This document shows positions 11,318-24,873 of a DNA stretch of 46,584 nucleotides, piece after piece. The stretch is from Pelagimonas varians (GTDB lineage: Bacteria; Pseudomonadota; Alphaproteobacteria; Rhodobacterales; Rhodobacteraceae). The notes below the pieces were generated by a model, which saw only the letters and a list, made by a program, of their open reading frames with translations, was not told the origin of the DNA and ran no database searches. The translations under genes and the position numbers were made by a program. How positions within the stretch are numbered: position 1 is the stretch's first letter; each line of letters begins with the position of its first letter. Location: NCBI RefSeq assembly GCF_003208435.1, contig NZ_QKMF01000026.1, positions 1 through 46,584 of the forward strand, given 5' to 3'.

Positions 11318-12336
11318 TCAGGCTGTGTGAGGGGTGTACGGTTCGTTGCGGGTGAGGACCGCCTAGACAATCCTTGCCGTTTATTGGCCATAGCGACGGT
11401 TGCGACACGCGCTGGCTTGCGTTCCAGCAGTGATGTCAGCCATTTGCTTGCGCGCTCCGGATGCGATTTGGTCTGTCGGACGAGCGACGTCATGCCAACG
11501 ACGAGCAACGATCATAAGTATTGGTCACCCATCTTAGTAATCCGTCCAAGCCTCTCTTTGCCGCCGCTGGATTTGTTCGCAGGCGTCAGACCCAACCATG
11601 CTGCAAACTCACGGCCATTGCGGAACTGATGACCATCACCAATGCTGGCGACAATTGCCGAGGCCGTCACTGCGCCGACGCCCGGTATGGTGCGCAACAA
11701 ACGAACTCGCGTATCTTCCTTAGCGACCAGCTTGAGCCGATTTTCATACCATCGGATTCGAGTGTGAAGCGCCATGAGATGCTCACACAGATTATGGATC
11801 ACCTCATGGGCAATATCGGGCAGGTCCAGCACTTCGCCGGTCAAAATATCCTCCGCAAAGCCGACGATCTGCGCGAGGCCCTTCGCGGTGTATACGCCAA
11901 ACTCCGCGACCATACCGCGCAAACTATTGATCAGCTGGGTGCGTTGGCGGACAAGCAGACTTCGGGCGCAATGGAGCGACAACAAGGCTTGTTGTTCACC
12001 GGTTTTGATGGCGACAAATCGCATCGTAGGACGTGTCACCGTTTCACAAATAGCTTCGGCATCAATGGCGTCGGACTTCCCGCGTTTGACGTATGGTTTG
12101 ACATAGATTGGTGGGATTAGCCGGACTTCATGGCCAAACGCCGTCAACTCGCGCGCCCAATGATGTGCACTGCTACAGGCCTCCATGCCAATGAGACAGG
12201 GATCAAGCTTGGAGAAGAACGGCAGCAACTGTGCTCGTCTCAAAGGCCGGTTGAAGGCTACCTCTTCGTCTTCAGTAATCCCGTGAACCTGGAAAACGTT
12301 CTTGGCCAGACCAAGGCCGATTGTGGTAACTTGCAT
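11318..12336 (-). pseudogene. Broken IS110-family transposase
   Basis: The minus-strand frame 12336-11512 gives an IS110-type DEDD transposase N-terminus (KSDAIDAEAI; LLRTIPGVGAVTASAIVASIG; FAAWLGLTP; ITKMGDQYL). The family's first catalytic Asp, normally in IGLDxAK, is Gly here (IGLGLAKNVF). The frame stops at 11512 just after GDQYL. The next stretch (MLVVGMTSLVRQ, from 11508) continues the protein in another frame, and the tail TARIV*AVLTRNEPY around 11330-11390 needs a further shift and carries an in-frame TAG where Trp is expected. So there are two frameshifts, one nonsense codon and a lost catalytic residue: the copy is dead. Its ends were not identified. Confidence 0.88.
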
Positions 12337-12846: not shown

Positions 12847-12899
12847 ACTGAACAGACGAAAAACACTCGACCCGATGAGTCCAATAGGCAGTTGTTGTG

Positions 12900-13664
12900 A
12901 TGATATCTTCCAATGTCCAAACTGAAGGCGGTAATTCCCTTCGGACGCAACAGCGTTTGATTGTACTTGATGTGCTTCGGTCAACCGCGCTGTTGGGAAT
13001 GATCGTGTTTCATTTTGCCCGCGATCTGGAGATGTTTGGGTATGTTGACGAGGGCACAACGATGAGCGGGGGCTGGGCACTTTTTGCACGTTTTATCGCA
13101 GGATCATTTTTGCTGCTGGCAGGGGTAAGCTTAAGCCTCGCGCATAGCTCTGGCATTCGCTGGGCCGCTTTCTTTCGAAGGTTGGTGATTGTCAGCACGG
13201 CGGCACTTGCAATCACGCTTACCACCTATGCTGCGGTCCCTGAGCAATTCATCTACTTTGGCGTTCTGCATGTCATTGCGGTCTCGAGCTTGGTGGGGTT
13301 GATTTTTCTAAAGTTACCGATGCCTACGGTCTTTTTCGCAACTGCATGCGCTTTCTTTTTGCCAGATGTGTTTCGAACAGATGTGTTGAACCATCCCGGA
13401 TTGACATGGATTGGCCTGTCCACACGATGGCGCCCATCGTTGGACTTCTTACCCCTGCTGCCATGGGTTTCGCCATTTCTGGCTGGCATCTGTATCGCAC
13501 GCATTTTCGTACGCTTTGGGGTATGGCACGTACCAAAGCAAGCCAGGCAGACACCAGGACAAGTCGTATGGATGCTCGCATGGTCCGGTCGTCACAGCCT
13601 CGCGATTTACCTCATACATCAGCCGTTCCTGATTGGGCTGCTCTGGTTGTTCAGCAATCTCTGA
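12900..13664 (+). CDS. DUF1624 / heparan-alpha-glucosaminide acetyltransferase-like membrane protein
   Basis: A polytopic membrane protein of 254 residues with about seven hydrophobic segments. The start has the family pattern: RLIVLDVLRSTALLGMIVFH followed by FARDLEMFGY, where the family reads R..(L/F)D..RG.A...M...H...D; the usual Gly after Arg is Ser here. The C-terminal segment GRHSLAIYLIHQPFLIG is also typical of acyltransferase-like membrane proteins (YeiB/DUF1624/HGSNAT). Members are thought to move acetyl or acyl groups across the membrane to an external sugar, but the acceptor is unknown. GTG 12897 and ATG 12900 are adjacent; I prefer ATG. A 74-base gap separates it from the next gene of the cluster. 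Confidence 0.85.
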   Translation: MISSNVQTEGGNSLRTQQRLIVLDVLRSTALLGMIVFHFARDLEMFGYVDEGTTMSGGWALFARFIAGSFLLLAGVSLSLAHSSGIRWAAFFRRLVIVSTAALAITLTTYAAVPEQFIYFGVLHVIAVSSLVGLIFLKLPMPTVFFATACAFFLPDVFRTDVLNHPGLTWIGLSTRWRPSLDFLPLLPWVSPFLAGICIARIFVRFGVWHVPKQARQTPGQVVWMLAWSGRHSLAIYLIHQPFLIGLLWLFSNL

Positions 13665-13738
13665 CGCGGGCTTACAAGCTGGTTGATTTCAACGCGCCTT
13701 TGCGTCAACTTTATCTTGGAACACCCGGAGGAGGAAAA

Positions 13739-14389
13739 ATGCACCGTTTTGTAGCATTGATTTTGGCATCAGCTTTGATGGCTAGCAGCGCGGCCGCTGA
13801 GTCCGTGACATCCAGAAATGGCGGACCATCCTCGGCAGAAATGACAGCACGAAGCAGTGCTGGTGCTCCCGAAGGGACAGCCTTCTTTCGTCCAGTTCTG
13901 AGCGGTGTTCTCTACCGGTCCGGATTTTCCGGGGGCGACAAGAAACGCACTGGTTTGTCACAAGCTCAGCGGGGCGCGCTGTGTGAAGCCGGATTTTCAA
14001 AAGCGTTCTACGCCGACTTTGGCAAAAGCACCTCCTACGGAGTGACAAGCTGCGCCTCGGGCTCGTTGGACTACCAATCCGCGCGGTCCTCGCGGCCATC
14101 GAACGTGTTAAAGGCTGTGCATGAAGCCATCAAGAAACCGTCCTCAGGGCCGGTTCTCGTTCATTGCATGTGGGGTGTCCACGCATCTGGTGCCTTGTCT
14201 GCCATGTCTCTTGTACAGTTTTGCGGCTGGTCCGAAACACGCGCTAAGGCATACTGGGACAAAACCCGCAATGGCGCTCCTTGCTCGGGCGGGTGTGACA
14301 AATGGATTGATGCCAAATTTGCTAAGTTCAAAGTCGATCCGAACCTTTCCATCACGGATGCAGAACGTGCTGCAATCTGCCCGAAATAA
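13739..14389 (+). CDS. Secreted tyrosine-phosphatase-like protein lacking the P-loop Arg
   Basis: Starts at ATG 13739 after a strong GGAGGAGG ribosome site, although the frame is open further upstream. Residues 1-20 are a Sec signal peptide (cleavage near SSAAA/ES). The mature part resembles dual-specificity or PTP-like phosphatases: LSGVLYRSGFSGG (54-66), GLSQAQRGALCEAGFSKAF, and a P-loop-like VLVHCMWGVHASG (139-151). The nucleophile Cys143 is present, but the Arg of the CX5R signature is Ala149. It may therefore bind phospho-substrates rather than cleave them, or use another residue. Four more Cys could form disulfides in the periplasm. It lies 18 bases before the kinase-like gene, in the same operon. 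Confidence 0.78.
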   Translation: MHRFVALILASALMASSAAAESVTSRNGGPSSAEMTARSSAGAPEGTAFFRPVLSGVLYRSGFSGGDKKRTGLSQAQRGALCEAGFSKAFYADFGKSTSYGVTSCASGSLDYQSARSSRPSNVLKAVHEAIKKPSSGPVLVHCMWGVHASGALSAMSLVQFCGWSETRAKAYWDKTRNGAPCSGGCDKWIDAKFAKFKVDPNLSITDAERAAICPK

Positions 14390-14407
14390 CAAAGATCAGG
14401 AGAGGAT

Positions 14408-15847
14408 ATGATACAAAACTTGTGCGCCACCATCGCCTGTTTTGTCGCCTTTACGGCGCCAGCATTTGCATCTGATGCCGTAAAGGGAGCAGAAACCCTT
14501 TTTTCCAGTCCGAACGGGCTTACGGAACGCTGCGTGCGCATCATATCAATTCCCGGCGGTGAGTATTCAAAGCACGATCTGACCGACGAAGCAGCGTATT
14601 GCGACATCGACTTGCATGCCCCCACTGTGGCCCTTTGCCCGAAAACCTGGAGTACCAGCCCAGGCACCATGATCTATGACGTGCGCAACGGACCCTATGC
14701 AAACAACCGATCCGAGTTTGAGCGCAACGCCTGCAAGGAAGGCAAATCTGCAAGCGCGCTAGCAGGTGATACGCTCGCTAAGTTTAAAATCACGATGAAC
14801 CAATCGGGAACTAGCGGGACCTTCTCGGCGTCGCCCCTGCTGTATTATCACTTCTCTCGCTATTTTGGTACGACGGTGAAAGTGCCCGTCGCCGTCTGGC
14901 GTTCTACAGACGCGAAAACCCACGCCAGCGAGGTGGCACAGCCCGGTTTGGCCTTGTCGGGCCACAACCATGGTGCACGCATGAATCATGAAGGTTGGCG
15001 TTATGTGGTAGAGGCCGAGCAAAACCCGGGGATCTATAAGCCCACGGATGATATCTTTACCGCGGATCGCAAACAAATTTATGGTGTGTTGCTCGACAGC
15101 CCTGGACACCGCTATGGATCAGAGATCAACGGCACACGGAAATCGGGCTGGGGCAAAGGCCAGAACCTGGATTTTCAAGAAACGCCTGCATTTCTTGCTT
15201 TACGCGACGCATCGCCGTTGGATCAAGCCATCAACGCCGGCCTAAAAAGGGGACGCCAAAACAGCCAGATCAACAAGGACCTTGGCAAAGACGTTTCACC
15301 GCAACAAATGGCGTTCTGGATGCGCGAAATCTCGGAAATTGTGCTACTGGATTTTATCTTTAGCCAGCAGGACCGAGTCGGAAACATCGACTTCACACCC
15401 TACTACTATTGGCTGGAATCCGATGAGCTGACGCACAAACGTGCGAAACATCATGCGCCCAAAGACGGCGATGTACCTGCCGGTGCGCAGCTACTCCGCC
15501 GGACCAATCTGAGCGACAATGACGCAGGTGGGCGTGTCCAGTATGCGAACTTTGCAAAGAGCACGCAGATGTTAGAAAAGCTTCGCCATTTCGACGCGGA
15601 AGTCTATAGAAAATTGATGGCGCTGGATCGTGACCTTCAGGCGCAAGGTCCAATCTGGCAGTGGACAGCAAGCAGCCTTGGGCTGACCGAAAGTCAGATT
15701 TCACAGATTGTGAAAAATACAAAACTGGCAACGGATATCCTGCGCTCTAGTTGCGAGAATGGAAATCTCAGATTTGACCTCAACCCCAAAAGGTTCTTTG
15801 AAACAAGACAGGTAACGGCTGACAATGTGACGTGCGATGGCGCGTAA
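14408..15847 (+). CDS. Secreted atypical kinase-like protein (FAM20/HipA-like fold suspected)
   Basis: A 479-residue protein with a signal peptide at 1-22 (AFTAPAFA/SD). I see three marks of the FAM20/PI4K/HipA kinase group in the right order. A possible nucleotide-binding lysine segment (KFKITMNQ, 125-132) is followed by SASPLLYYHFSRYFGTTVKV (140-159) and P160, comparable to the AEIAAFxLxRxL..VPPV helix of FAM20. A catalytic-loop-like stretch DFIFSQQDRVGN (315-326) contains D322, R323 and N326. A metal-binding-like SDNDAGG (369-375) replaces the usual DNG. The protein is exported, so ATP supply is an open question. The start follows a CAGGAGAGG ribosome site and the stop overlaps the phosphoesterase start by 11 bases. 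The family call is inference from motif order and needs structure prediction. Confidence 0.62.
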   Translation: MIQNLCATIACFVAFTAPAFASDAVKGAETLFSSPNGLTERCVRIISIPGGEYSKHDLTDEAAYCDIDLHAPTVALCPKTWSTSPGTMIYDVRNGPYANNRSEFERNACKEGKSASALAGDTLAKFKITMNQSGTSGTFSASPLLYYHFSRYFGTTVKVPVAVWRSTDAKTHASEVAQPGLALSGHNHGARMNHEGWRYVVEAEQNPGIYKPTDDIFTADRKQIYGVLLDSPGHRYGSEINGTRKSGWGKGQNLDFQETPAFLALRDASPLDQAINAGLKRGRQNSQINKDLGKDVSPQQMAFWMREISEIVLLDFIFSQQDRVGNIDFTPYYYWLESDELTHKRAKHHAPKDGDVPAGAQLLRRTNLSDNDAGGRVQYANFAKSTQMLEKLRHFDAEVYRKLMALDRDLQAQGPIWQWTASSLGLTESQISQIVKNTKLATDILRSSCENGNLRFDLNPKRFFETRQVTADNVTCDGA

Positions 15848-16814
15848 TCTTGCTGTCCTTGTTTCGGTCTGCTTCTGGTTCGGTGTCGCAGGCTTCGCCA
15901 GCGCTAAATCATATAAAGTCGCGGTTATTTCGGATCTGAACGGATCATATGGATCCACCGAATATGGATCAGGAGTAACACGTGCCATTGACGCCATAAT
16001 CGCCCTGGAACCAGATTTGGTTCTGGCAACCGGGGATATGGTCGCGGGGCAACGCCGACCGCAACTGAATGCGGCAGAGATCCGCGCCATGTGGAAAGGT
16101 TTTCACAAAGCGGTCAGCAACCCTTTACGCAAGGCAGGTATTCCGCTTGCTGTTACGCCCGGAAATCACGATGCATCAGCCTATGGAGGCTTTGAACGGG
16201 AACGGGAAATTTTTGCCGCAGAATGGCGCGGACGCCGACCCGCAGTGCCGTTTGTCGATGACCAAAATTATCCGTTCAACTACGCTTTCGATTTGGGAGG
16301 GGTTCGTTTTGCGTCTCTTGACATCACAACGTTGGGCACGCTCGGTTTTGATCAGGATCAGTGGCTCGCTCGGATTATGAACGATGGACCTGAGACACGC
16401 GTCATTTTCAGTCACATTCCCCTCTGGTCTTTTGCCCAAGGGCGAGAAACCGAGATCATATCCGATCCCAAGGTGACGACCCTTCTTGCTAAAACTGGCG
16501 TCGATATGCATCTCAGCGGGCATCACCATGCGTATTACCCCGGCGCATCCAGCGGCATTGCTTATGTATCCCAGTCTTGCATTGGTGCCGGTCCACGCCG
16601 TTTAATCGGGCAAAACAACCGCAGCGTTCGCGGTTTCACGGTCATCGACATCACGTCGGACGGATCACTGGGGTTGTCACATTATGGGGGGGCCGATTAC
16701 ACACGCAGAACAAACGCAAATAGCCTTCCTGCAAAGCTGACGACACCGCAGGGTGTTTTGAACCGGATTGATCTTGCAAACCTGCCAAATATTAGTCTGT
16801 CCAAGGCACAATAG
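15837..16814 (+). CDS. Secreted calcineurin-like metallophosphoesterase
   Basis: A 325-residue two-metal phosphoesterase with a signal peptide at 1-23. The motifs appear in order: ISDLNGSYGS (D33, with Asn35 where the family usually has His), ATGDMV (D67), TPGNHD (N110, H111, D112), FSHIPLW (H192) and LSGHHH (H228-H230). All other metal ligands are present. An Asn at the DxH position occurs in some subfamilies and may alter metal affinity. It should cleave phosphomonoesters or diesters outside the cytoplasm; the substrate is not evident. The start codon overlaps the end of the kinase-like gene, so the two are probably translationally coupled. Confidence 0.9.
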   Translation: MARNLAVLVSVCFWFGVAGFASAKSYKVAVISDLNGSYGSTEYGSGVTRAIDAIIALEPDLVLATGDMVAGQRRPQLNAAEIRAMWKGFHKAVSNPLRKAGIPLAVTPGNHDASAYGGFEREREIFAAEWRGRRPAVPFVDDQNYPFNYAFDLGGVRFASLDITTLGTLGFDQDQWLARIMNDGPETRVIFSHIPLWSFAQGRETEIISDPKVTTLLAKTGVDMHLSGHHHAYYPGASSGIAYVSQSCIGAGPRRLIGQNNRSVRGFTVIDITSDGSLGLSHYGGADYTRRTNANSLPAKLTTPQGVLNRIDLANLPNISLSKAQ

Positions 16815-16825
16815 GCGAGCACAGA

Positions 16826-17665
16826 GTGACACTTCAAAAACGATATTTGGCGCAACCTTTTGGCAATGTGACTGATAACAGCGGCGCAACAGCACTATTG
16901 CGCTTTGGTGTGACGTTGATCATTTTCATTCTGGTGATTTTCCCGACCTTACCGGCACTTGCGCAGTCACAGCCCATTGACGGCGTCTTGACCCTACCGC
17001 CAGAGGTAACGATTGATGGCAAGGGTTGGGCACAAATCCTCAATGTAAAAGAGATGATCCAATTTGGTTTGGGTGTTGTCGAAACACTCATCTTGACCAC
17101 ATTCTTGGCTTTTCATCCCCAAAACCGGGAGCATGTACAAGGCAAACGCAACTGGCGTGTGCCGCGTGCGCTTTTTCTATATGGGCTGATTGGCATGCTT
17201 GTGGGTTTTCTAGTCGTACACCACGGGTATCTCATTGGATTTGTTGTCTTTGGAGTAGGGGGCCTGTTTCGGTTCAGGATGGAGACGATGTCCATCTCAA
17301 ACGCTGCTCAATTGATACTTGTGTCATTAATCGGTCTGACAATTGGACTTGATCTTCCGGTCATGGCTGCTTCGGCGGCACTTGCGGCATGGATAGTGCT
17401 CTGGGTTTTTGGCGGACGCCAAGATCTTGTCCTGGAGGTCAAATTCCGCGAGGACCTTAATTACTCTCAGGCGCTCGACGGTCTCAAGAAAAGCCTCTCG
17501 GAAAAGGGCTTTGTTTGGGTCACCGTGACCAAACCAAAATTCAAATCGATGGCCGAGATTACTCTGGCCACGAATGCACAGGACGGGCGTGGAAACCTTG
17601 TGGCGCTTCTTTCTGCCATGCAGTCAGATGAAACGCTTGGTATTCTGGATTGGCATCTTGAATAG
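16826..17665 (+). CDS. DUF4956/MgtC-like multi-pass membrane protein
   Basis: Starts at GTG 16826, 11 bases after the previous stop. The protein has 279 residues. A hydrophobic segment at about 25-47 is followed by an external loop, then a membrane core from about 75 to 190. This core includes GVGGLFRFRMETMSISNAAQ, the R-R.....(D/N)A pattern of DUF4956 and MgtC-type proteins, and then LVSLIGLTIGLDLPV. The last 80 residues are soluble, of ferredoxin/ACT-like composition (LVLEVKFREDLNYSQALDGL). DUF4956 proteins often sit beside VTC-type polyphosphate polymerases or CotH kinases, that is, phosphate-transfer enzymes. This would suit the cluster, but the assignment is tentative. Confidence 0.6.
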   Translation: MTLQKRYLAQPFGNVTDNSGATALLRFGVTLIIFILVIFPTLPALAQSQPIDGVLTLPPEVTIDGKGWAQILNVKEMIQFGLGVVETLILTTFLAFHPQNREHVQGKRNWRVPRALFLYGLIGMLVGFLVVHHGYLIGFVVFGVGGLFRFRMETMSISNAAQLILVSLIGLTIGLDLPVMAASAALAAWIVLWVFGGRQDLVLEVKFREDLNYSQALDGLKKSLSEKGFVWVTVTKPKFKSMAEITLATNAQDGRGNLVALLSAMQSDETLGILDWHLE

Positions 17666-17714
17666 GGGCATTCCCCCCTTTGCGTCAGTTTGTCCTTGGT
17701 GTCGGCACGATCAT

Positions 17715-18578
17715 ATGACCCTAAGGTCCGTTTCATTTTTTTGCTGTGCACTCCTCTGGGGGGCCACTGAAGTTGTAGCGCAGGATGTTCCTACTCTGAC
17801 ATTTGAAGAACGACTGGGTGCATACGACAAGAGCGAAGGCCTTACCGAACCTTCAGGCCTTTCCACAGGGCATACTGTGCCTTTTTGGACTGTCAGCGAC
17901 GATCATCCATTTGTCTTGGGATTGGATGTCAAAGGTACTGTCGTTACAGTCATTCCACTGGGCAAAGGCGTCCATGATCTTGAAGGCGTGATCGAAGATA
18001 CCGCCCGTGCGAGACTTCTGGTTGTGTCAGAAAAGAAAACTGAAATCACTTCCATTGATCTCAACGATCTATCAGAAATCTCGCGCTATCCGTTATCTGA
18101 GATGGGCGGTTTCTCAAAGTTGCTCTCGGACTTTGACACTAACTGGAAGAAGAACGGGCTCGAAGGCATCACTGTCGCGCCTGAAACTGGGACCATCTAT
18201 GTCATCAAAGAGCGCGAGCCCCGAATGATAATCGCGATCTCTGCGGATCTTTCCACAATCTTGTCAATCGAGATGCTCGGACGGGATGCCGGGCTGATCA
18301 GCCCCCGAAAAAACGACCGGAAAATGGATATCTCGGGGATCGCAAGTGATCCGAGCCGAGACGGCCAGTGGATATTGAGCGACACAGATCAAGCCGTCTT
18401 TTTCCGCGATTTGCAAGATGGGACTGTGTATCGATATCCATTGAGTTGGATGTCTGAGAGCGGTCTGCAACATGTATCCAACCCTGAAGGCGTTGCGCTT
18501 AGCGCTGATGGAACTGAGCTGTTTATTATCACTGATAACGGTAAGGATTCCGCGCTTTTTCGGTATGATATTCAATGA
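17715..18578 (+). CDS. Secreted SdiA-regulated / phytase-like beta-propeller protein
   Basis: I take ATG 17715, which gives a signal peptide (MTLRSVSFFCCALLWGATEV, then VAQ/D). The frame is open further upstream but overlaps the previous gene. The mature protein of about 265 residues shows beta-propeller blades of the SdiA-regulated family, which is related to esterase-like phytases: EPSGLS.....FWTVSDD, HDLEGVIED, NGLEGITVAPETGTIYVIKE, DISGIASDPSRDGQWILSDT, NPEGVALSADGTELFIITDN. The conserved acidic (D/N)LEG(I/V) repeats could bind Ca2+ or phosphate. An enzymatic role is unproven for the family. It lies 49 bases after the membrane-protein gene. Confidence 0.82.
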   Translation: MTLRSVSFFCCALLWGATEVVAQDVPTLTFEERLGAYDKSEGLTEPSGLSTGHTVPFWTVSDDHPFVLGLDVKGTVVTVIPLGKGVHDLEGVIEDTARARLLVVSEKKTEITSIDLNDLSEISRYPLSEMGGFSKLLSDFDTNWKKNGLEGITVAPETGTIYVIKEREPRMIIAISADLSTILSIEMLGRDAGLISPRKNDRKMDISGIASDPSRDGQWILSDTDQAVFFRDLQDGTVYRYPLSWMSESGLQHVSNPEGVALSADGTELFIITDNGKDSALFRYDIQ

Positions 18579-18611
18579 GTTGTGCGAAGATCCTCTCGGA
18601 GTTGTGACAGG

Positions 18612-18878
18612 ATGATGCAAAGGACGTTCAAGATTATTTTCTGGGTTTTCATTGGGCTTTATATAGTTGCGCTGGCCTTATTTTTGGTCGGAACTTTCGG
18701 GCTTTTTGGTGCCGCGCGCGACCCGCTCTCCGGTATTTTTCTTATCCCCTTGGGCTGGCCGTGGAACTTTTTGACAGATGTGTTTCCAGAAGTGTTATGG
18801 CCTTGGGTCGCAGCAGCGATGCCCACGGCCAATGCAGGCATTTTGGGGTGGCTGAGTTACCGTATAAGCTCCACTTAA
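18612..18878 (+). CDS. Small membrane protein, two predicted segments
   Basis: An 88-residue protein starting at the tandem ATG 18612/18615, 33 bases after the previous stop. Two hydrophobic stretches are seen (about 6-32 and 40-80, the latter rich in Trp and Pro: IPLGWPWNFL). No family is recognised. Its position at the end of the export cluster and the short spacing suggest it belongs to the same transcript. Confidence 0.6.
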   Translation: MMQRTFKIIFWVFIGLYIVALALFLVGTFGLFGAARDPLSGIFLIPLGWPWNFLTDVFPEVLWPWVAAAMPTANAGILGWLSYRISST

Positions 18879-18892
18879 AGGAGAGCTGTAAG

Positions 18893-19026
18893 ATGGGGCA
18901 TCCTGTGAAATTGAAAATCGCGGCTTTCACCCTGATGATTGCACCTTTGCGGCCTGCGTCGAAGACACAGGAAATGCTCTGGGCGGACAACCTGAGATCA
19001 AAGTTAGATTGGTTCCAAATCGGTAG
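18893..19026 (+). pseudogene. Frameshifted small lipoprotein gene
   Basis: An AAGGAGAGC ribosome site precedes ATG 18893, and the frame begins with a good signal (MGHPVKLKIAAFTLMIA). The annotated frame then turns into unlikely sequence (PLRPASKTQ). In the frame that a single missing base near 18942 would restore, the text reads TFAACVEDTGNALGGQPEIK and ends VRLVPNR and TAG at 19026. FAAC directly after the hydrophobic stretch is a fair lipobox. The simplest reading is a lipoprotein of about 45 residues broken by a one-base deletion. If unbroken, the literal frame instead runs to 19081 (62 residues). Confidence 0.5.
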
Positions 19027-19956: not shown

Positions 19957-21391
19957 GATGGATTCAGCCGGTCATCGCAACACTTGCTCTAATCTATTAG
20001 ATGGTGACTGGAAGCCCAAGGTTTTTCGTGGGCGTCCATTCAAATGCCGTGCGACGTCATCCAAGTCTTTCTGAGAGTAACCCGCAAGACAGGAACCCTT
20101 TGGGAAGTATTGTCGTAGGAGACCGTTGGTATTTTCATTCGTACCGCGTTGCCATGGGCTGCTTGGGTCGCAAAAATAGACATCGATCCCAGCCTGGTCT
20201 TTGAGCTTATGATGTTGCGCCATTTCAGCACCCTGATCCCAGGTTAGCGATTTGCGCAGATGGCCGGGCAAATGTTGAATGGATTTGGCGATGGCATCTC
20301 GCACAGCTTCGGCACCATGCCCTTCAAGAGCGGGGCCGTTTCTCCGGCGCGGGCCATCGCCGTGACCCGGCATCGGTGGCAGGTGCAATAGAAGGGTGAA
20401 GCGGGTTTTGCGTTCAACGAGCGTCCCGATAGCGGAGCTTTTCAAGCCAAGGATTAAATCCCCTTCCCAGTGGCCCGGCACAGCGCGATCAGCAACTTCA
20501 GCCGGACGTTCACTGATCATGATTTCATCTGGTACAAAGCTTCTTCCACTCCCTTTTCGGCGGGCCCGTGGCACCCGTAAAGCGCGGCCTGAACGTAAGC
20601 ACGTGACGAGCTCGCGGCGCAGTGCGCCACGTCCCTGAATAAACAAGGCCTGATAAATGGTTTCAGGGCTGATGCGCATTGAGGGATCTTCCGGATAGTC
20701 TCGCGGCAAGCGTCGTGCAATTTGTTCAGGCGACCAAGCTGTTGCCCAACGACGGTGCTGACGCCGCACGGATCGACGTTTGGTCCAAGCAACATCAGGG
20801 CCAGGTACAATGTCGCCGTCTGGACCTGTCACATTACCAGACAGCCGGTCTTCGATATACTGGCGCAAAATCGGGTTCTGAGCCAGCTTTGTAACTTTAG
20901 GACGCCTTGCCGCGCGGTTTGCATGCCATTGCGCCGTCGTTGCGCGGTACTCAAAACCGCCGCTGCGTGTTGCAGCATTACGGCGCAACTCCCTTGATAT
21001 CGTCGATGCCGCCCGTCCTATTTTGCGCGCAATGACACAAACGCCAAGACCCTGCGCACGGTATAAAGAAATCTCCTCACGCTCAGCGAAGGATAGGTAC
21101 CGCCCCGTTAGTGGCGGCGAAGACTTTGAATATTGCGATGGTGGCATGCCTCCAGCCTCCCGAAACCAACGACCGCCAACCGGGGCAGACGCGCCAACCT
21201 GAACCGCCGCATCTTCGCTGGAAAGTCCTTTGCCGATCAGCTTCCAGAACATTACGTGTTGCTTTCGATGCGCCGCTTTCGGCCTTCCCGGTGAACTTAG
21301 TTTTCTTCGCGTACTTTGATCTGAGGCTCGTTTGTGTGTCGTCATAACCGTCTCCATCTTGAAACCGTTGCGACGACCGATTGAATCCGCC
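19957..21391 (-). mobile_element. IS30-family element A (chimeric left end)
   Basis: The left end begins GATGGATTCAGCCGGTCATC and the right end is an imperfect inverted match, GTTGCGACGACCGATTGAAT (21367-21386) continuing to 21391. The element carries one intact transposase gene on the minus strand. Its left 231 bp (19957-20187) are near-identical to 38264-38494 of the second IS30, with one mismatch seen near 20166, whereas the rest of the two elements is clearly diverged. The two ends of this copy no longer match each other exactly. Confidence 0.85.
19972..21357 (-). CDS. IS30-family transposase
   Basis: A 461-residue transposase. The N-terminal region holds helix-turn-helix segments (LSFAEREEISLYRAQGLGVC then ARKIGRAASTISRELRRN). 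The central part has WSPEQIARRLPRDYPEDPSM and ISPETIYQALF, and the DDE catalytic domain has GHWEGDLILG (first Asp), SLTWDQGAEMAQH (second Asp) and DPSSPWQRGTNENTNGLLRQ (Glu in NENTNG). All three acidic residues are present, so it could be active if its ends still work. The last 70 or so residues are identical to those of the second IS30 transposase at 38279-39424. Confidence 0.95.
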   Translation of the reverse strand: METVMTTHKRASDQSTRRKLSSPGRPKAAHRKQHVMFWKLIGKGLSSEDAAVQVGASAPVGGRWFREAGGMPPSQYSKSSPPLTGRYLSFAEREEISLYRAQGLGVCVIARKIGRAASTISRELRRNAATRSGGFEYRATTAQWHANRAARRPKVTKLAQNPILRQYIEDRLSGNVTGPDGDIVPGPDVAWTKRRSVRRQHRRWATAWSPEQIARRLPRDYPEDPSMRISPETIYQALFIQGRGALRRELVTCLRSGRALRVPRARRKGSGRSFVPDEIMISERPAEVADRAVPGHWEGDLILGLKSSAIGTLVERKTRFTLLLHLPPMPGHGDGPRRRNGPALEGHGAEAVRDAIAKSIQHLPGHLRKSLTWDQGAEMAQHHKLKDQAGIDVYFCDPSSPWQRGTNENTNGLLRQYFPKGSCLAGYSQKDLDDVARHLNGRPRKTLGFQSPSNRLEQVLR

Positions 21392-21473
21392 TTGGCTGCC
21401 GCGGTCCGTGTGATGGATGCAGCCCTTGGGCGGTGTGCGGAACGCGATGGCCATCTTCAACGGATGACCCGTA
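21392..21473 (-). pseudogene. IS3-family OrfB fragment interrupted by IS30
   Basis: Just outside the IS30 right end, the minus strand reads GHPLKMAIAFRTPPKGCIHH then TDRGSQ, the conserved stretch before the second catalytic Asp of IS3 transposases ((K)GCIHHTDRGSQY). The remainder is absent. The IS3 fragment on the other side of the IS30 (19716-19939) lies on the opposite strand, so the two are not halves of one copy in its original orientation. Confidence 0.7.
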
Positions 21474-22463
21474 TCAACCGCATGGGCTGAACCCCATACA
21501 CAGAGTTTCGGATACTCCCGCGTCCATTAATTCGCGATCAAGTTTCTCGAACATGGATACATCCTCTTCGGCGTTCTCAAATAGGTGCCCGTAAACGTCC
21601 ATTGTCATCGTAATTGATGCATGGCCGAGCAGCGTTTGAATCTTCTTCGGATTCCAGGCTTGCTCAATGAAGAGTGACGCGGCCGCGTGGCGCAGGGCAT
21701 GAATGCCGAATTTTGCCTGGCCGTTTTCTCCAACAATTCCTTCGGCTACCAACATCGGCTTAAAGACGCGGTTGTAAATGTTGGAGTAGTTCTGCACTTT
21801 TCCAACAGAATTGGGAAACACGAGCCCCAACGCGCTCTCAGGTGCATTTTTCTGCCAAATGGACAGCTCAGAAAACACGGTCGGAGCCATTGGGATCTCT
21901 CGTGTGCCCGCCCGGCTTTTTGGCAGCCCGATCTCGCAGTATTCGTCAGCCCGCTGACAGACGCGGATCACCTTTCGGTCGAAATCTACGGCCTCCCAGG
22001 CAAGCCCTCTCAATTCGGAAATTCGCATACCAGTGAAGATTGCGGTGATGAACATGGCGCGATGCGAGGCGGGGGCGTTCTCGATGATGCTTCTGATCTC
22101 GTGTTTGGTAGGGACGACCACGCGCTTTCCGTCTTTGCGGGCGCTGCGCTTGACTTTGATCTCGGCAGCCACGTTGTGAGACGCCCATTCACGCTCAACA
22201 GCCTCTGTCAGGATCGCGCGAAGGCTAACCATGATTTTCTTGACCTGCGCGAGGGAAACTCCGTTGTCGACAAGATCATCCATAAAATCACGCACGTCTC
22301 CGCGGGACAGAGTGGTGAGCAGGAGATCGCCGATCTTCGGTTCAATGTGGATCCGGGCATGGCTGCGATAGGCTTTCATTGTCGAGCGCTCCAATTCGTT
22401 GCGCTCACAGGATTTGAGCCAACTTTGGCAGGCATCGGACAGGGTTTTGGACGGACGGGGCAT
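21474..22463 (-). CDS. Tyrosine recombinase / phage-type integrase
   Basis: From ATG 22463 (MPRPSKTL) the protein has 329 residues; the frame is open to 22589 but the upstream part is poor. It has an N-terminal SAM-like core-binding domain (about 5-95: SDACQSWLKSCERNELERST...) and a C-terminal catalytic domain. The catalytic set is visible: FTGMRISELRGLAW (first Arg), FGIHALRHAAASLF (H-x-x-R), LLGHASITMTMDVYGHL (His and the Tyr nucleophile). It is probably an element integrase. The last residues (ETLCMGFSPCG) may have been altered by the IS3 fragment joined at its 3' end. No tRNA lies next to it. Confidence 0.92.
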   Translation of the reverse strand: MPRPSKTLSDACQSWLKSCERNELERSTMKAYRSHARIHIEPKIGDLLLTTLSRGDVRDFMDDLVDNGVSLAQVKKIMVSLRAILTEAVEREWASHNVAAEIKVKRSARKDGKRVVVPTKHEIRSIIENAPASHRAMFITAIFTGMRISELRGLAWEAVDFDRKVIRVCQRADEYCEIGLPKSRAGTREIPMAPTVFSELSIWQKNAPESALGLVFPNSVGKVQNYSNIYNRVFKPMLVAEGIVGENGQAKFGIHALRHAAASLFIEQAWNPKKIQTLLGHASITMTMDVYGHLFENAEEDVSMFEKLDRELMDAGVSETLCMGFSPCG

Positions 22464-22654
22464 GTTGTTCTCTCGGGCTGATTGATGACCTTCTACTATA
22501 GGAGAGGGAAAATCGTCCTTCGGGTATTTTCCGCCAGTCTTGTGATTTCTGTTCGTCAGGATCAGCATGCGATACCTGTGCCTTTCCATCTGGTCTGATT
22601 ATCTGTAACACTCCAATTGGCGGCGTTTGTGTTGCTGCAACGTTAAGGTCCAAA

Positions 22655-23401: not shown

Positions 23402-23923
23402 CCATAAGTGTAGGGTCGTTTTGAGTGGACGTTCATTGGCATCGCCAAGTTGGCCGGACCAAACCCTTACACGAAGGATCTCGGCGATATAGCTCGGCGG
23501 AACAGGGTAGGGTGCGTGTTTGATCGAGAAATGCTCGGTTTGTCGGTTTTCCCCGCTCTAACCCCGTATTAAACCCGTACCAATTTGGCGTTTTCTCTAA
23601 GGGGTAGGGTATTCAATGCTCCCCCAGTGATAGATTGTGCGCCAGAGTGCGTGGCTCGAGTTCTGGTTGCGTTTGGCGATTTTTGCGCTGCCGTGCAGGC
23701 ACCCGCGCACGGAGACGCGCACAGAGTCTGCCTGCGTCGCTGGTGGGTGGAGCCGCTGTTTAGACACTGCCGTCCGACAAACTCCTTTTCCCTTTGACGC
23801 AGATCATGGGGGAATATGTCCCATGCATGCGGTTATTACATGACCATGAAGGCGCGTTTAGAATTCATTGGACAGTGGTTGTTTCGATAGGAGAGTGGAT
23901 TTTGAAGTTCAGAGGTGTTTAAG
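23402..23923. other. Intergenic, no gene supported
   Basis: Short frames here (23585-23843) are rich in Arg and Trp and have no family resemblance. The 3' part holds a possible FnrL-type site (23794-23807), and the ribosome site of the next gene (AGAGG at 23911-23915) decides its ATG 23924. Confidence 0.5.
23794..23807. promoter_or_regulatory. Possible Fnr/FnrL-type site
   Basis: TTGACGCAGATCAT matches the Fnr-family palindrome TTGAT-N4-ATCAA at 8 of 10 positions and the Rhodobacter FnrL style (TTGATCCAGATCAA). It lies 117 bases upstream of ATG 23924. A single site of this quality can occur by chance. Confidence 0.35.
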
Positions 23924-24478
23924 ATGATCAATCTTACAAAACACATGACGCTTGGTGCTCTTCTTTTATTTGGCATGCCCGTCTTTGCCGGACAGAGTTG
24001 TGCGCAAATGGGGGCAACTGAGCTGGTAAGGAGCCAACTCTATTGCGCCTCGTCGGTGCTAGCTCCTCAATCCGGCAACACCTATGGGCCAGAGAACCTG
24101 TTCGATGGCAATTTTCGTACTGCTTGGTGCGAAGGTGTCGCAGGCAATGGTGAAGGGCAGGAAATATACGTCAGGATAGAAGACGGAATTCCGTTCCGTC
24201 GTTTGTTGATACACAATGGCTATGCCAAATCGACCGATACCTACCGAAGCAACGGGCGGGCTCGGTCCATCGATGTTTTGACGGACCGGGGTGATCGTAT
24301 TCGAACTGTGTTGCCAGATACATCCAGTGAAGTGGTGTTAAATCTTCCGGGTCCCATTGAGTACCACGAACTTAGAATCCGGATCGTAGATGTATATCCG
24401 GGTGCAAAGTATCAAGATACCTGCATCAACTTAATTATCCCGGATTTCGAGTATGAAAGATCTCTGGAATTCCAATAA
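23924..24478 (+). CDS. Secreted discoidin-like (NADase-type glycan-binding) domain protein
   Basis: A 184-residue protein with a Sec signal at 1 to about 23 (LGALLLFGMPVFA/GQ). The mature part reads like the discoidin-fold glycan-binding domain first named for bacterial NADases: SSVLAPQSGNTYGPENLFDG, FRTAWCEGVAGNGEGQEIYV, LLIHNGYAKSTDTYRSNGRA, then a beta-rich C-terminal half. Cys residues near both ends may pair. It likely binds a carbohydrate or cell-wall ligand in the periplasm or outside. The SH3-domain gene follows after 41 bases, so the two are probably co-transcribed. Confidence 0.72.
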   Translation: MINLTKHMTLGALLLFGMPVFAGQSCAQMGATELVRSQLYCASSVLAPQSGNTYGPENLFDGNFRTAWCEGVAGNGEGQEIYVRIEDGIPFRRLLIHNGYAKSTDTYRSNGRARSIDVLTDRGDRIRTVLPDTSSEVVLNLPGPIEYHELRIRIVDVYPGAKYQDTCINLIIPDFEYERSLEFQ

Positions 24479-24519
24479 ATTCGATCAGTTTTTCAAAATA
24501 AACCAGTGGAAGCATTCTC

Positions 24520-24873
24520 ATGGAAAGACGTTTTGTAAGCTTGGCGCTTGTTGCCCTTTTGTTTTCACCTCTTTCGGCCAGCGCAGATGCATCCGGGCCG
24601 GACTATTTTCGAATTGTTGGTGTCGCCTCAAGCGATGTTCTTAACATTCGTTCACAGCCTACAGCGCGGTCCGCCATCATCGGGACAATTTCACCGAGCG
24701 GAGACGGTATTGAGAACCTCGGATGCCAAGGTGGTTTCAGCTACGCTGAGTGGGAAGCGGCTTCGCCTGCTGAACGCGAAGCCGCAAGAAAGCGGGTATG
24801 GTGCCGGATTAATTACCGGGGCGTGAGCGGTTGGGTTGCGGGGTGGTTTCTGGCCGAAGGAAGTGCCCGTTGA
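24520..24873 (+). CDS. Secreted bacterial SH3 domain protein
   Basis: A 117-residue protein with a signal peptide (MERRFVSLALVALLFSPLSA, cleavage near SASA/DA). A type 3 SH3 domain follows: FRIVGVASSDVLNIRSQPTA, then IIGTISPSGDGIENLGC, an inserted helix (YAEWEAASPAEREAARKRVW) and the closing WCRINYRGVSGWVAGWFLAE. Such domains bind peptidoglycan or proteins in the cell envelope. The helical insert between the fourth and fifth strands is seen in many alphaproteobacterial SH3 proteins. It is paired with the glycan-binding-like gene just upstream. Confidence 0.85.
   Translation: MERRFVSLALVALLFSPLSASADASGPDYFRIVGVASSDVLNIRSQPTARSAIIGTISPSGDGIENLGCQGGFSYAEWEAASPAEREAARKRVWCRINYRGVSGWVAGWFLAEGSAR

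Follow-up and report, generated by a model that had tools for sequence, protein, structure and literature searches.

Little is known of phosphorylation outside the bacterial cytoplasm. Among the closest described parallels to the gene set treated here are the Fam20 proteins and a Gram-positive exopolysaccharide locus. Fam20C works with a catalytically dead activator, Fam20A; the essential Glu of Fam20 kinases is Glu213 of ceFam20, and the pseudokinase Fam20A has Gln258 in its place (PMC5413348). In Fam20C, R459 adjoins a cation-binding Asp (PMC7948968); Fam20B phosphorylates xylose (PMC5865150). A word search within the latter source, an account of Fam20 structure and evolution, gave no match to 'bacteria' or 'prokaryot'. 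In Gram-positive bacteria, Pel exopolysaccharide genes adjoin DUF4956 genes, the kinase gene cotH, and a polyphosphate polymerase gene (PMC7112168). Here we analyzed a 46,584-nucleotide contig of Pelagimonas varians (NZ_QKMF01000026.1; "the window"), in which seven plus-strand genes, A to G, include one for an exported kinase-fold protein (C) and one for an exported phosphatase-fold protein (B). The module looks like an undescribed system for phosphorylation beyond the inner membrane, and no description of its gene set was found among the matches listed from open-licence PubMed Central papers.

A conserved core of three genes with two attached

The central gene, C (14408..15847, +), encodes a 479-residue Fam20/PI4K-II-like protein with the invariant motifs A-[KR]-x-K, YYHxSR, QxDRxxNI, and LxDNDA. 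It is preceded by B (13739..14389, +), whose product has the dual-specificity/protein tyrosine phosphatase (DSP/PTP) fold, and followed by D (15837..16814, +), encoding an exported calcineurin-like phosphoesterase. E (16826..17665, +) encodes a DUF4956/MgtC-like multi-pass membrane protein, and F (about 17715..18578, +; the start is inferred, the longest frame beginning at 17574) an exported SdiA-regulated beta-propeller. Signal-peptide-like N-termini were read from the sequence on B, C, D, and F.

Among Roseobacter- and Paracoccus-family bacteria the gene set was rare yet well conserved. A sample of 394 family genomes contained 18 with a near full-length C, own genome included; one further genome (G015) had a broken C only, its locus L039 (7032-7979) holding decayed C and D with broken frames. 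A contig scan gave 24 named C loci, including Roseovarius, Cognatishimia, Ruegeria, Celeribacter, Tateyamaria, Marivita, Rhodovulum, Shimia, and Aliiruegeria; among the carriers were Celeribacter sp. PS-C1, Roseovarius aestuariivivens, Aestuariivita boseongensis, Marivita geojedonensis, and Rhodovulum robiginosum. Loci L022 to L064 (n=43), minus five duplicates, one broken copy, and one fragment, left 36 besides the window. Within 6 kb of C, with some loci cut by contig ends, these 36 loci held B in 34, D in 35, E in 31, F in 25, A in 8, and G in 12 cases. The genes thus occurred together in many other genomes, as the initial annotation of this DNA had proposed to check. The prevailing orders were EFBCD and BCDEF (12 loci each), followed by BCD with an inverted E (3), BCD (3), and BCDE (2); BCD with inverted E then F, EBCD, CD, and C alone were seen once each.

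Linkage was also evident at the level of whole genomes. Of 388 genomes of the family (a different sample from the 394 searched for C), 16 had a full-length B, all of them C-bearing and with B adjoining C; two genomes (G367 and G396) gave partial B matches with stops. E was present in 14/18 C-bearing versus 0/22 C-lacking genomes (Fisher p 1.3e-7) and F in 10/18 versus 0/22 (Fisher p 5.2e-5), with every match of either gene at the C locus; the 22 C-lacking genomes were the first listed rather than a random draw, and the locus of one genome (G029) was cut by a contig end. In a phylogeny of C, the loci whose E-F lies downstream came together on one side with good support (97/97), and the loci with upstream E-F fell outside it, five loci being ungrouped and E-only loci being placed by the position of E. 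This split indicates that E-F was retained near B-C-D while its position changed at least once. B, C, and D form a conserved core to which E and F are attached.

Outside the family, relatives were few. A class-wide profile search returned 1/385 genomes (the window's own) and a phylum-wide search 2/299, the second being G869, from another family of the same class. Its distant C is 28% identical to that of the window, directly adjoins a B, and keeps D-R-x-x-N, D-N-D, and the invariant Lys. With the G869 protein as query, 1/297 genomes of its order was found, namely itself.

A kinase-fold protein and a phosphatase-fold partner lacking the catalytic Arg

C had no family above cut-off in Pfam or NCBIfam. 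Its predicted structure, by model and structural re-alignment, was nearest to the Fam20 and PI4K-II kinase folds, the best Fam20 rows, at 9-12% identity, scoring about 2 Z above the PI4K-type rows. C thus models as a Fam20/PI4K-II-type kinase fold, and kinase activity is predicted from it. The initial annotation had called the protein kinase-like for its D-R-x-x-N and D-N-D motifs and had suggested a structure check; the fold was recovered, and both motifs, together with one Lys, were invariant in 37/37 rows. The two motifs, candidates for the Asp of the catalytic segment and the DFG-type Asp (Asp478 of Fam20C), follow each other in the order expected for Fam20. C and Fam20A/B/C are alike in being exported and in carrying a D-R and then a D-N motif. 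They differ in that C is bacterial, has no Pfam match, and has a PTP fold rather than a pseudokinase as partner. PI4K-II, CtkA, and HipA are not exported by a signal peptide; they gave lower Z than Fam20 for C and keep other gene company.

B is the usual partner of C, and it carries a phosphatase fold without the catalytic Arg, a point missed in the initial annotation. B matched Y_phosphatase weakly (E 0.016, below the Pfam cut-off). The P-loop, HCMWGVHASG in the window, read HCMWGVH[AS]SG in 35/35 rows, so that the Cys is kept and the Arg of C-x5-R is replaced by Ala or Ser; B of a further locus (L067) has the same replacement. The earlier description of B as phosphatase-like stands for the fold but is weakened by the catalytic residue, and because the Arg is absent from every row B is probably no ordinary phosphatase. 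TpbA, a dual-specificity phosphatase of Pseudomonas aeruginosa, is periplasmic and active and has both Cys and Arg, unlike B; we know of no kinase partner for TpbA. STYX-type pseudophosphatases are eukaryotic and cytoplasmic and have lost the Cys, whereas B, compared with STYX (2r0b), keeps the Cys and loses the Arg. A PTP fold that lacks the Arg in every member seen and still stands beside a kinase is a clean test case for a pseudophosphatase. The pairing of a predicted kinase with a putatively dead partner would parallel that of Fam20C with Fam20A (PMC5413348).

D matched Metallophos above cut-off (PF00149, E 3.8e-16). The usual calcineurin-like motifs are D-x-H, GD, GNH[DE], H, and GHxH; the first metal motif of D is DxN (SDLNG) instead of DxH, with SD[LMF]NG in 35/36 rows. 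The odd row was the broken L039, and the 35 unbroken rows keep the later Metallophos motifs. E is multi-pass and resembles both DUF4956 and MgtC, each below its curated cut-off (PF16316: E 1.3e-4, 22.2 bits against 30.6); 11/21 E members matched PF16316 at E <= 0.01, the best at 8.4e-5. For F, the SdiA-regulated match (PF06977, E 8.2e-20, 71.5 bits against a cut-off of 21) was stronger than the Phytase-like one (PF13449, 6.9e-8), which weakens the phytase-like label of the initial annotation. The combination of an atypical kinase with a DUF4956-type membrane protein recalls the CotH/polyphosphate polymerase/DUF4956 association (PMC7112168). The window cluster differs in having neither CotH nor a polyphosphate polymerase (no Pfam match to either up to E 1 in eight candidate frames), and counterparts of B, D, and F do not figure in the passages on that association.

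A putative extracytoplasmic phosphotransfer cycle

We consider it somewhat probable (about 0.57) that B to F constitute an extracytoplasmic phosphotransfer module, whose activity, donor, and substrate are predicted from fold, motifs, and gene company. Exported C would phosphorylate an envelope substrate, a surface glycan being slightly likelier than a protein. B may not act as a normal phosphatase but be a constant partner or regulator that binds C or its phosphorylated product, and D would take the phosphate off, closing the cycle. The DUF4956-like membrane protein E may help supply the phosphate donor or couple the periplasmic parts to the cell, and propeller F may bind substrate or product. 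The initial interpretation, in which the cluster adds, reads, and removes phosphate groups on a periplasmic or surface molecule, is therefore partly supported: it holds in outline as a conserved exported module with a kinase-fold protein. The module offers a defined, testable set in named strains, consisting of three accessory proteins, a family-less kinase-fold protein, and the constant partner of the latter. Should it prove active, Fam20-like extracellular kinases would no longer be confined to other organisms but reach into bacteria, and the supply of the phosphate donor to the kinase would need explaining.

Several observations weigh against this phosphotransfer reading. Free ATP is scarce in the periplasm. 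The model of C was moderate (mean pLDDT 67.6, pTM 0.72, below 50 at residues 153-233), and Foldseek gave no match at E <= 0.001, Fam20C ranking third (E 1.4, prob 0.18). No kinase family or chain was matched by the C sequence in Pfam, NCBIfam, or solved chains; Fam20 and other kinase families were likewise absent at E <= 10 among 25 and 7 members scanned, in searches whose HMMER filters drop most weak matches. A counterpart of the Fam20 essential Glu was not located in C, so C may be a pseudokinase, and the activity of D may be altered since the His of the usual first DxH is missing. G300 and G223 are genomes with C but no B at the locus. Loci L037 and L038 hold C (46% and 37% identical to that of the window) without B, which suggests that B is dispensable in some lineages. 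Near these two kinase genes (L037 1614-7680, L038 10647-16576) lie genes for a DUF3131 protein and for a GT2 glycosyltransferase that carries a deacetylase-like domain. The two proteins are homologous between the loci (about 31-32% identity), the polysaccharide-deacetylase-like domain being weak in L038 (E 0.013). Neither the window nor any other locus had the GT2/DUF3131 pair, except that L036 gave a short, partial match to GT2. The glycosyltransferase is a hint of a glycan substrate that comes from two loci, both without B. Further glycan hints are the DUF4956 genes beside Pel exopolysaccharide genes (PMC7112168) and the xylose phosphorylation by Fam20B (PMC5865150).

In a more specific form of the phosphotransfer module, it would be a bacterial counterpart of Fam20C/Fam20A: an exported Fam20-type kinase with a constant phosphatase-fold partner, Arg-less throughout its family, that acts allosterically or holds the product, marking surface glycans or lipoproteins with the tag CVEDTG, with the donor supplied via the DUF4956-like protein. 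We regard this form as doubtful.

The best surviving alternative, itself unlikely, is that neither C nor B is catalytically active and that the two make up a periplasmic sensor or scaffold, with D as the sole enzyme. The loss of the Arg from every B, the nonsignificant Foldseek result, the unplaced Glu of C, and the departure of D at its DxH are all consistent with such a pseudoenzyme complex. Against it stands the invariance of D-R-x-x-N, D-N-D, and Lys in C, maintained even in the distant copy of G869; this suggests continued selection on C for binding of nucleotide or metal.

A slightly less probable alternative is that C is a protein kinase for small outer-membrane lipoproteins tagged C-V-E-D-T-G, and that B and D read or remove the mark. 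Small lipoproteins with this tag or variants directly after the lipobox lie near a number of kinase loci (L026 2164-2484; L042 6891-7202 and 8636-8953; L051 7653-7964 and 9418-9735; L052 1780-2079; L060 17846-18157), and two types with unlike mature parts share it. One type, LPb, was found in 13/18 C-bearing versus 1/22 C-lacking genomes (Fisher p 8e-6); a C-bearing locus had supplied the LPb query, and in 4 of the 13 genomes the match was weak (best E 1e-6 to 1e-5). The CVEDTG codon pattern occurred in 6/8 C-bearing and 1/8 C-lacking genomes, matches in G069 and G009 being other proteins, and in-frame tagged lipoproteins in 5/8 versus 0/8 (Fisher p 0.026). A lipoprotein remnant also ends the window cluster (tag 18955-18971). 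However, such co-occurrence does not establish a substrate: the tagged lipoproteins lie outside the operon, on other contigs in some genomes, some carry tag variants, and LPb occurs in G009, which lacks C. The window's own genome, moreover, has B to F intact but both of its tagged copies broken. These broken copies and the two C-bearing loci without B make both the lipoprotein alternative and the phosphotransfer module itself marginally less probable; the pseudoenzyme alternative gains as little.

That C is a PI4K-like lipid or inositol kinase, with B, D, and F handling the phosphorylated product, is very unlikely, as the Fam20 rows score higher for C, F fits SdiA-regulated better than Phytase-like, and phosphoinositides are uncommon in these bacteria.

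Neighboring genes and possible mobility

Upstream of B lies A (12897..13664, +), an optional neighbor encoding a multi-pass membrane acyltransferase-like protein; its match to HGSNAT_cat/DUF1624 (PF07786, E 1.9e-66, profile 1-222/222) bears out the earlier assignment. The loosely linked G (18582 or 18615..18878, +) encodes a small membrane protein with one strong hydrophobic segment and no Pfam match above cut-off, and it occurs beside C in either orientation. The gaps from A to G were 74, 18, -11, 11, 49, and 3 bases. Eight plus-strand genes and five exported proteins had been counted at first; seven genes, four of them with signal-peptide-like starts, remained. The eighth, a small lipoprotein ending at 19026, was not confirmed: the frame bearing FAAC-VEDTG has no ATG, GTG, or TTG ahead of it, and a neighboring frame, with both a start and a hydrophobic stretch, lacks a lipobox. 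This broken stretch (18893..19026, +; AAC-VEDTG) looks like a remnant of the CVEDTG-type lipoprotein family, which other loci carry intact.

Other genes recurred at subsets of the loci and were left out of the module. Small exported proteins (c14 and c15), examples of which had no Pfam match at E <= 0.01, recurred with membrane proteins that we take to be DUF805-like (L059 15984-18965, L027 12441-16461, L050 1028-3468, L029 2668-4647), and other recurring neighbors are presumably GlsB- and YARHG-like. In the window, positions 23915-24873 encode an exported NADase_transloc/F5-8 type C domain protein and then an SH3b protein. The SH3b protein (24520-24873) was rejected as a module part: relatives lie near several loci, but they occurred in 8/18 C-bearing versus 11/22 C-lacking genomes.

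The earlier suggestion of a transferable module agrees with the patchy spread of the set, but no plasmid, phage, or viral contig was identified as its vehicle. Searches with C by tblastn through 72,556 plasmid records (E 1e-5) and 50,697 phage records (E 0.01) came back empty, and an IMG/VR scan returned three pattern stretches and no relative. Two genomes of the genus to which the window's genome belongs, G001 and G002, lack the set. On the C tree, Shimia-named records occupied two positions, as did Tateyamaria-named records. In Marivita geojedonensis the module is present twice, in diverged copies that lie on separate contigs (L051 and L063), with C about 74-75% identical. The transposase debris noted earlier on both flanks was confirmed. 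Upstream is an IS110-family transposase with a cut C-terminal domain (11512..12336, -; PF02371 positions 2-64 of 87, and PF01548). Downstream (19972..22589, -) are a transposase (PF13936 (HTH_38), E 4.1e-17; PF00665 (rve) below cut-off), which we take to be IS30-like, and a tyrosine integrase (PF00589, E 1.9e-23).

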